This document shows, one piece after another, positions 2,356-4,457 of a DNA stretch of 45,488 nucleotides (its first letter is position 1; every line of letters begins with the position of its first letter). Below the pieces are notes generated by a model. That model saw only the letters and a list, made by a program, of their open reading frames with translations. It was not told the DNA's origin and did not search any database. Position numbers and translations under genes: made by a program. The stretch is from Xenococcaceae cyanobacterium MO_167.B27 (lineage in GTDB: Bacteria; Cyanobacteriota; Cyanobacteriia; Cyanobacteriales; Xenococcaceae): positions 1-45,488 of the forward strand of contig JASJCP010000059.1 in the NCBI GenBank assembly GCA_030065935.1. The letters run 5' to 3'.

Positions 2356-2638
2356 ATTAACTGAAAAACTATCTATAGAGTTTTTTCTCTACAAATAGTT
2401 AACTTCTATAGATAGTTATTTATAACTTATTACTTTATGTATGTCGTTGTGCAGTATTACGACAAGAGGTCGGAAATCAATGGCAAGACGATATTAACGG
2501 GACTTAAACAATTTTTGCGGTCAAAATAAGATATAATGGTTTTAATGATTGACTTTAGCATTACTATATATAGCGATCGCAGTCATGAAAGAAACAACTC
2601 CCGCAGCGATGCCCCCTTGCTTTGATAGATGGTGTAAA

Positions 2639-2738
2639 CAAATGACTTTAAAAATCAAGGGGGTCTTAATAGCCGTTCAGTTAATAGCTTTGACCATCAA
2701 ATTAATTTAAAAGACCCCCTTGATTTTTTTGTCTCCTC
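2639..2738 (+). repeat. Palindromic MITE-like element, copy 1
   Basis: About 100 bp, flanked by a perfect 6 bp duplication TGTAAA (2633-2638 and 2739-2744). Its core, 2650-2728, is a hairpin with an 18 bp perfect stem: AAAAATCAAGGGGGTCTT at 2650-2667 pairs with 2711-2728. It encodes nothing. Removing the element plus one TGTAAA restores the transposase frame and the natural-looking sequence WCKKFDDLL. The reverse complement of this copy aligns along its whole length with copy 2 at 3131-3232. Confidence 0.85.
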
Positions 2739-3130
2739 TGTAAAAAGTTTGATGACTTACTTAGGAGTAAAGCTCAAAAAAGAGAGTTTAGACACTATTT
2801 GGGAGGATTATTGGGAGAAAGTGAGAGAAAAAATGTATCTCAAATGGCGAGAGACTCAGTAGAGGTCACATACCACAAATTACATCATTTTTTAACTGAA
2901 GCAACTTGGGAAGCGGATAAGATTAATGAGCGTCGGTTAGAAGTAATGAGTAAATCCAACCAAACTAGAATAAGTCGGGGATTTAGTCTAATTGTTGATG
3001 ATAGTGGGCATAGGAAAAGTGGTAATTTTACCGCAGGAGTAGGACGGCAGTATATTGGGGAAATCGGCAAAACTGATAATGGAAATGTAGTAGTAACAAC
3101 ACATCTTTATGATGGAAAAAAAAGCTACAG

Positions 3131-3232
3131 AAGGAGACAAAAAAAATTAGGGTGGTCTTTTAAATTAATTTAATGGTCAGAGTTATTAAGTTATCGGCTA
3201 CTGAAGACCACCCTAATTTTTCAAGTCATTTG
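3131..3232 (-). repeat. Palindromic MITE-like element, copy 2, inverted
   Basis: The same element as at 2639-2738 in opposite orientation. Shared landmarks are GGAGACAAAAAAA near one end, TAAATTAATTT in the loop and AAGTCATTTG at the other end. The hairpin core is 3142-3221, with arm AAAAATTAGGGTGGTCTT (3142-3159) perfectly paired to 3204-3221. The stem differs from copy 1 at three positions, and each change is matched on the opposite arm. A clean target duplication is not obvious; only TAC is shared by both flanks. It splits the transposase between SerTyr and the LPLDIELYQ segment. Confidence 0.8.
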
Positions 3233-4077
3233 TTACCTTTAGACATAGAATTATATCAACATGGTAATTCGTTACCTGAAGGAAAGAAAGACCCAGAATT
3301 TAAGAAAAAACCAGAGTTAGCTTTAAGTTTAATTGATAAAACTATTGAAAGAGGATATAAACCAGGAATAGTCTTAATTGATTCAGGATATGGGAACAAT
3401 ACAACTTTTTTATTAAACCTTGATATAAGAAAATTGAATTATTTAGGGGGGATAGCTAAAAATATAAAAATTACTATTAATAAAGAAAAAAATATTGCAT
3501 CCATGCGAATAGATAAGTTTGCAGAAAGCTTGTCAGAAGATGCTTTTACAGAAGTCATACTAAATTTAGATAAACCCAAAAAAGTTTGGGTGACAACAAA
3601 AGAAGTTGAAATTAGTACCTTCAAAGAAAAAAGAATTGTTGCTATCGTTATGAATGCAGCTACTTTTTCTGAAGCTACAGATATTGATTATTTTATTACA
3701 AATGTCTCTCCAGATATTGTAACTCCAGAATGGATAGTCTCAACCTATTCTCAAAGGAACTGGGTTGAAGTTTTTTACCGTGAAGTCAAAGGCTGGTTGG
3801 GATTAAAAGAGTATCAAGTTAGAAGTAAAAGAAGTTTAAAACGACATTTTATTCTAGTTTTTTGTGCCTATACTTTTATCCTTTGGCATAAGCTTACTGG
3901 TGGTTTAAGAAGGCGTTGGGCTAATAAACCTTTAAACACATTTCCTGAAGCGTTAGAGGCATTTCGTACAGCTATGTCTTTCCGTTTTATAGAATGGCTC
4001 AACCAAAATCAGAACGTATTTGCAGCTTACAAAGCGAGTTGTGGTTTTGTTTGGGCTTAATTTTTGTTTAAGTCCCG

Positions 4078-4457
4078 CTAGGAATATAAAGGGTTTAACT
4101 AGTTCTCAAAGAGCTATCAGTTTAGACCTAATTGCTGTGGGCATTAGTAGCCGTATCTGGAATGATGAAGCTGAAGCAGTAAAAGACTTGAAACAATGCT
4201 TTGAGTGGATAGAAAACGATTTAAAAGTCACCCAATCCCCATTAAAAGATTTAATAGGGCATCTAGTCAAGCAGGAAGAAACCAATGCTATTAACGGCGA
4301 CTATAACCCTAGTCTTGATGCTAATACTTTACGTTCTTATGCTCAAAATTGGTACGAAAAAGGTTGGCTATTAGATAAGCCTCACAGTAAAGATATTGTT
4401 GTGATTATGGGTGAACATGGTTACAAATTGAACAAAGGAAAATGGCTCAAACAATAG
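4078..4457 (+). CDS. 5'-truncated hypothetical protein, about 125 aa left
   Basis: An open frame runs out of the right end of the insertion sequence and ends at 4457. Gene-like sequence begins about NIKGLTSSQRAISLDLIAVG and includes AINGDYNPSLDANTLRSYAQ and a C-terminus EHGYKLNKGKWLKQ. The true start seems lost or displaced by the insertion; a GTG at 4137 could serve as a new start. The family is not recognised. It overlaps the next gene by 16 bp, so it was probably the first gene of the co-directional set that continues to 7157. The position downstream of the iteron-like block would suit a replication or partition protein, but no motif supports that. Confidence 0.55.

Follow-up and report, generated by a model that had tools for sequence, protein, structure and literature searches.

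The window, the 45,488-nt stretch of DNA analysed here (Xenococcaceae cyanobacterium MO_167.B27, contig JASJCP010000059.1), carries two hairpin copies inside one transposase gene, which we take to be IS701-like, as the earlier note on this DNA does. As that note had described, the copies are each about 100 bp long and lie on opposite strands, at positions 2639–2738 (+) and 3129–3232 (−). The interrupted gene (2585–4060, +) would encode a DDE transposase of 420 aa without both inserts and is matched in pieces by Pfam DDE_5 and DDE_Tnp_1; NCBIfam calls a different but similar site, at C223, IS701, below the cut-off. The host insertion sequence (IS) is probably bounded by a left terminal repeat at 2495–2511 (+) and a right one at 4064–4080 (+), which pair with each other as a 17-nt inverted repeat (94%). 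Upstream of it, positions 2112–2290 hold several clustered direct and inverted repeats that resemble TTACTTACAAT; the two members of one direct pair are spaced 107 nt.

Copy 1 is 100 bp long and was matched by a covariance model over 2639–2741 (E 2.8e-18), copy 1 itself being one of the 18 sequences from which that model was built. The perfect 6-bp duplication TGTAAA reported earlier was found at 2633–2638 and 2739–2744, and the homologous gene of L009 has the empty site GGTGTAAAAAGTTT. The 18-bp left arm of the stem (2650–2667, +) pairs with the right arm at 2711–2728 (+). Copy 2, 104 bp long and opposite in orientation, has its stem arms at 3142–3159 and 3204–3221 (both −) and a TAC at 3126–3128 that recurs at 3234–3236; this TAC may be the GTAA of other copies minus one base. 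In each copy the 18-bp arms pair with 100% complementarity, and the copies differ at three stem positions, each altered on both arms, exactly as the earlier note had claimed. Its statement that the loop is conserved held only in part, the loops being similar but differing at 8 of 44 columns. Likewise, taking out 106 and 107 bp did restore the 420-residue frame, but the rebuilding was repeat-exact only for copy 1. Repeat-exact excision of copy 2 removes 108 bp and leaves a frame that stops after 147 residues, so the copy 2 site has probably lost one base.

Size and anatomy of the hairpin family

A BLAST search with copy 1 against its own 7.02 Mb genome returned 31 matches at 30 places, C258:32397 being counted on both strands; with the weakest match at E 5.5e-5, this is a hairpin repeat beyond chance. 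The covariance model R1, built from 18 copies, gave 69 matches at E ≤ 1 with both strands counted, and model R2 gave 75 matches at E ≤ 0.01, corresponding to 51 distinct places. R2 was built from 77 matches, most of which it later found again, so its E-values are partly circular, whereas the BLAST matches are not. The working set comprised 52 places, namely the 51 from R2 and the weaker R1 place C155:270 (E 0.18), with the BLAST partial copies C280 and C64 left out. The earlier note had proposed an unnamed family of mobile hairpins, to be given up if a whole-genome search turned up no other copies. Further copies exist, they have target duplications and two-sided stem changes, and no name was found for the family.

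The element is non-coding and about 98–105 nt long. It consists of a near-perfect hairpin (mostly 16–21 bp) enclosing a conserved loop of about 43–45 nt, with short outer tails that are hardly inverted repeats of each other (CAAATGA... / ...TTCCTCTCTC). The target duplication measures 3–6 nt and is mostly GTNA in the subfamily of the window copies. Two subfamilies were distinguished by eye from tails and target, CAAATGA...CTTCT between GTNA repeats and AAAAGGAATT...CTCCTCTC between TNAT repeats. Target-site duplication as in miniature inverted-repeat elements (MITEs) was found in four pairs of occupied and empty sites (L001/L009, L003/L029, L010/L004 and L017/L018, the last with one mismatch in the left repeat) and in border repeats of at least 3 nt at 46/52 places, with none at 6/52; these repeats were sought across a wide zone, and those of 3 nt may be due to chance. 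Unrelated sites, too, hold near-identical copies (C256:2093, C206:37137 and C174:673; C236:3129 and C71:23255). One hairpin element apparently lies inside another at L066/L070 (G001:C307:3258-3441), where element-like ends flank the second element. At L030 (G000:C64:56434-56473), a 38-nt remnant stands where the similar region L020 carries a full copy; the hairpin is mostly deleted, and the tails and flanking repeat are retained.

An Rfam scan of the sequence at gathering thresholds returned tRNA only. Relaxing it to E ≤ 1 added three look-alikes below threshold, which were rejected: two psbJ 3'UTR models reached 56–57% of the gathering score and MIR319 reached 36%. A scan for intrinsic terminators found 0; it admits loops of 3–8 nt only and is blind to a hairpin with a loop of about 43–45 nt.

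The family was detected by R1 in 7 of 60 genomes, its own included, and by a more sensitive search in 5 of six relatives, G049 giving 74 matches when both strands are counted. Applied more widely, R2 found it in 1 of 292 genomes, its own, with 13 candidates scored per genome, which makes this weak evidence of absence. The same elements occur in metagenome bins of Xenococcaceae, Pleurocapsa and Prochloraceae. A search with the loop pattern gave 7 stretches in named genomes and 0 in viral contigs. One of the seven, in a Pseudohongiella bin (L120, 7519–7556), was rejected as a family member since it holds only tandem repeats of CCGATAACTTAAA without a hairpin; CCGATAACTTAAA is a dodecamer in the hairpin loop of relatives.

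Pairing of the arms and recurrence at the same site

We counted arm pairing directly in 65 distinct elements. The 1169 stem pairs comprised 1154 Watson-Crick pairs, 1 G.T, 4 A.C and 10 others, in a count that trims mismatched stem ends and includes model-only copies chosen partly for pairing; among the 23 distinct plain-BLAST copies, mismatches were present in C258:90315 only. A structure-fitted alignment of 77 matches, 68 of its rows distinct, had two-sided changes in 18 of 18 pairs (238 cells, where shuffles averaged 68.9), and the score fell from 0.534 to 0.232 when the partner was shifted by one column. Pairing was seen in 86.9% of the cells of this alignment, in which column pair 29/137 is misaligned (30 U-G and 29 one-sided cells), an artefact removed by pairing each element with itself. 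Element pairs whose loops differ at no more than 8 positions, 64 in all, showed 181 two-arm and 4 one-arm changes, these pairs overlapping, so that the changes are not independent events. Stem differences that failed to covary, which the earlier note had named as grounds for dropping its reading, were thus not what we found. Up to five stem pairs differ at loop distances of 2–3 and up to seven at a loop distance of 7, and the changes between close copies include transversions, such as GC to TA.

Under selection on an RNA helix, G.U pairs are the usual intermediates. Their near absence from the stems argues for a process at the DNA level, and selection for a folded RNA, one of the options in the earlier note, is not supported, with a single G.T in 1169 pairs. 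The arm data point to a palindrome that is either copied from arm to arm in the hairpin or required as perfect DNA for movement.

Identical copies were also found at one nucleotide of homologous IS genes whose flanks are 8–19% different, and the ISKra4-like and IS1380 pairs show 0/102 differences in the element with 26–40 differences per ~200 nt of flank. C92 and C154, the ISKra4-like pair, have an identical 102-nt element, their flanks differ at 32/200 (left) and 40/208 (right) positions, and the shared run ends 8 nt to the left and 1 nt to the right of the element. An identical 102-nt element occupies the same nucleotide of three IS1380 genes (C256, C187 and C23), whose right flanks are 14–17% divergent over 610 nt; the left flank of C256/C187 (76/206) was set aside, C187 having a second insert there. 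If element and flank changed at equal rates, the chance of zero differences in the element would be 4e-7 in the ISKra4-like pair and at most 1.3e-7 in each IS1380 pair.

Of the paralogues compared within the own genome, the empty IS1380 gene C34 comes closest to the occupied C23 (66/610). On a tree that covers seven genomes with 14 IS1380 genes, the three occupied genes need three changes (2–3 in bootstraps), and their union in one clade was rejected (delta lnL 46.25, p-AU 0.0036); the three changes could represent one gain and precise losses. In the ISKra4-like left flank, the empty C200 is nearer to C92 (17/212) than the occupied C154 is (32/212); in the right flank it is not nearer (20/130 vs 14/130).

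The pairs C155/C192 and C207/C130 have identical elements, one member of each lying at a contig end, and the ISL3 pair C226/C122, with 3/106 differences and runs of 24 and 27 nt in common, may go back to a single old insertion. One same-site member abuts a contig end at C130, C192, C23 and L062. No flank conversion was seen in the clearest same-site pairs; very short conversion tracts are possible, chiefly in C207/C130, C256/C23 and C226/C122, which share a run of 22–27 nt on one side. The same site is also occupied across genera: the elements at L062 of G026 and L063 of G049 are identical over 104 nt, that at L072 of G012 differs at 3/104 positions, and the left flanks of the three are about 75–77% identical over ~580–600 nt. 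L063 lies in a host gene with a match to the transposase domain DUF772.

At L077 (G012), the loop is inverted relative to the tails when compared with the same-site L063 and L072, suggesting that it flipped within the palindrome, as processing of a hairpin or cruciform would lead one to expect.

Vertical inheritance would demand an element that mutates far more slowly than its flanks, yet copies at different sites vary widely. From the sequences compared, we prefer recurrent precise insertion; precise losses or very short conversion tracts may account for the pattern instead. An ordinary MITE is a possible but rather unlikely source of the same pattern. Here a DDE transposase would use terminal repeats that match imperfectly (roughly ACAAATGAC / AGAGGAGAC) and leave a 3–5 bp duplication, short-tract recombination between IS copies would produce the same-site copies, and quasipalindrome correction in replication would equalise the arms. 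The target repeats, the palindromic body and the several near-identical copies at unrelated sites all suit such an element. What it leaves unexplained is that the loop is conserved, whereas the arms, an expected part of DDE-read ends, vary freely yet stay paired, and that in some same-site pairs the flanks begin to differ 1–8 nt away from the element; moreover, searches for its ends in the own genome revealed no autonomous partner.

Host genes and reading frames

Transposase or TnpB open reading frames (ORFs) host 31 of the 52 places, inside or at the edge, and comprise ISL3 (6), TnpB (6), IS1380 (5), IS701-like (4), ISKra4-like (2), IS5-like (2), Y1 (2), IS630-like (1) and IS1-like (1) genes together with 2 other DDE genes, one of each type. 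Six of these 31 assignments lie below curated cut-offs (the two ISKra4, IS630, IS1, IS701 of C223 and TnpB of C192:628), those of C122, C187 (twice), C23 and C154 were made by similarity to a scanned relative, that of C71 comes from a flank match, and three elements are found right at the ORF boundary (C61, C148 and C256:2093). At random positions, at least 7 of 82 ORFs were transposase-type (5 TnpB and 2 IS110-type), a lower bound counted among the 25 most-matched families, in which single transposase matches are invisible. This control sampled contig starts with contigs equally weighted (86 distinct ORFs, of which 82 were scanned and 4 left out for overlap), and its sites received a less thorough annotation than the element sites did. 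A several-fold enrichment in transposase genes is hard to avoid, and part of it may reflect survival, such genes being dispensable. In G049, 20 loci were examined, and 6 of the 7 proteins scanned were transposase or serine-recombinase ORFs. This concentration in the genes of other mobile elements, like the same-site recurrence, had been missed by the earlier note. A spanning ORF of at least 85 aa without the insert was present at 42/52 places compared with 91/110 random positions, indicating that the copies are neither kept out of genes nor specially intragenic.

We consider it very improbable that the hairpin is cut from the mRNA like an intron, or skipped by the ribosome, with the transposase still made. 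The ORFs are otherwise open around many inserts, at least four transposase genes carry two inserts (C226, C187, C256 and C236), and same-site recurrence resembles that of introns and inteins; yet inserts occur in both orientations within genes, the frame of copy 2 is restored by 107 bp and not by the repeat-exact 108, additional frameshifts are present in the host genes of L063 and L072, and no Rfam family was found at threshold.

Some copies are read through in frame. A CyRepA1-type plasmid replication gene (NCBIfam, 1452 aa) contains two copies, both open and in frame, and read-through also occurs in a 431-aa ORF, a 254-aa DDE_Tnp_1_2 ORF and the 442-aa IS1380 frame of C256. The net insert length is a multiple of three at 23/52 places (about 17 expected), the lengths having been chosen in a way that favours open frames. 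These cases would suit a protein-coding palindrome kept for its in-frame translation, in the style of the Rickettsia palindromic elements. Against this, open frames among 47 distinct elements equal expectation (23 vs 22.0), so the in-frame cases look like tolerated accidents, and there is little reason to credit selection for a peptide.

The CyRepA1-type protein (L114, G000:C84; copies at C84:12972 and C84:13550), if made, would bear two inserts of about 34–35 residues. In the ISL3 gene of L116 (G000:C226), an extra in-frame insert of ~32 residues (AVRPRVAVRRKR...), absent from the C122 paralogue, lies downstream of the second hairpin; it is perhaps a different small repeat.

An assembly artefact, in which a short repeat is collapsed or mis-joined in the draft genome and related metagenome bins, is hardly credible even though many contigs end in or beside the element (C130, C192, C23, C279, C232 and C6) and the relatives with same-site copies are metagenome bins, since C92/C154, C256/C187 and L063/L072 lie within contigs and have distinct flanks.

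Mode of movement and comparison with known systems

These results describe a diverse mobile hairpin family with arm concordance at the DNA level and homing-like recurrence, a stronger finding than the earlier note stated. The account that we favour, by a modest degree, is a hairpin mobilised in trans whose arms template each other and whose site-directed insertion seeds empty homologues. The element would travel as a folded single strand, and an enzyme supplied in trans would recognise the loop and tails. One arm would template the other, which would keep the palindrome perfect, and a target duplication would be produced on insertion. If insertion is site-directed, an occupied IS gene could seed its empty homologues, that is, home. 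Insertion breaks the host gene, unless the insert happens to be in frame and open.

The data are consistent with movement as a single strand, as suggested earlier. Single-strand enzymes are at hand, the own genome containing 43 Y1_Tnp matches, none of them tied to the element. A search of the own genome for solo ends and end patterns gave nothing convincing, with element copies and two-mismatch matches near the control level; it yielded two element-like ends beside contig ends (C170 and C233) and single matches at C144 and C36. No mobilising enzyme, autonomous relative or excision intermediate was found. As for the choice of site, GTNA is too short to account for it, the near-identical copies at unrelated sites indicate that targeting is not strict, and stem sequence showed no relation to the flanks that would mark the stem as a guide (permutation p 0.10–0.25).

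A bolder extension of the favoured account, which we think improbable though worth stating, is a class of homing elements in which a non-coding folded single strand of about 100 nt, copied arm to arm, re-invades the same nucleotide of transposase genes across genera and acts as a gene drive against insertion sequences. Memory of the site would then come from the flanks, for example if adjoining sequence were carried along as a guide on a transcript or strand, and not from an encoded endonuclease. A categorically new homing class is possible. Among the titles and abstract openings covered, which are part of the literature, we found no account of this hairpin family or of homing by a non-coding hairpin, and no small bacterial repeat reported to home. 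Should the recurrence at one site hold, homing is possible for a DNA element with no room for an enzyme gene. The family would also be a naturally occurring example of predation on insertion sequences by other mobile elements. With its conserved loop and free but paired arms, it would further provide a clean system for separating the correction of DNA palindromes from selection on RNA structure, which covariation tests usually cannot distinguish.

The nearest known kinds are REPINs, Rickettsia palindromic elements and MITEs. REPINs are outlined in passages of PMC3116915 as small non-autonomous hairpins with compensatory changes on both sides, for which single-strand mobilisation has been proposed; they comprise two conserved inverted REP ends and a less conserved spacer, are extragenic, and are reported in Nostoc punctiforme too. 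The hairpin family resembles REPINs, which go with RAYT (REP-associated tyrosine) transposases, in its small non-autonomous hairpin, its compensatory arm changes and its proposed movement as a single strand. It differs in that its arms vary and its loop is conserved, and in its target duplications, its mostly intragenic location (a spanning ORF at 42/52 places) and its recurrence at homologous sites. The Rickettsia palindromic elements, according to passages of PMC10969869, are small palindromes in ORFs, some read in frame, with a conserved peptide. The likeness lies in small palindromes inside ORFs, some of them read through in frame; in contrast, the open frames of the hairpin family are at chance level and its hosts are mostly transposases. 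Nezha is a cyanobacterial MITE according to a title cited in PMC10969869. MITEs such as Nezha are likewise small and non-coding, with target duplications and an inverted-repeat body, whereas no parent IS was found for the hairpin family in the searches above, its tails are weakly inverted, its stems diversify in concert and it recurs at the same site.

The small dispersed repeats (SDRs) of Nostoc are tiny mobile repeats of 21–27 nt with compensatory stem changes. The hairpin family shares with them its small size, its mobility in cyanobacteria and its compensatory stem changes and is longer, at ~98–105 nt; we know of no same-site homing by SDRs. Homing group I and II introns and inteins insert into coding sequence, and related copies share a site in diverged homologues. 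The hairpin family is like them in occupying the same site of diverged homologues, with reservations on conversion and contig ends; unlike them, it has neither coding capacity nor a recognised splicing fold, and it makes a target duplication.
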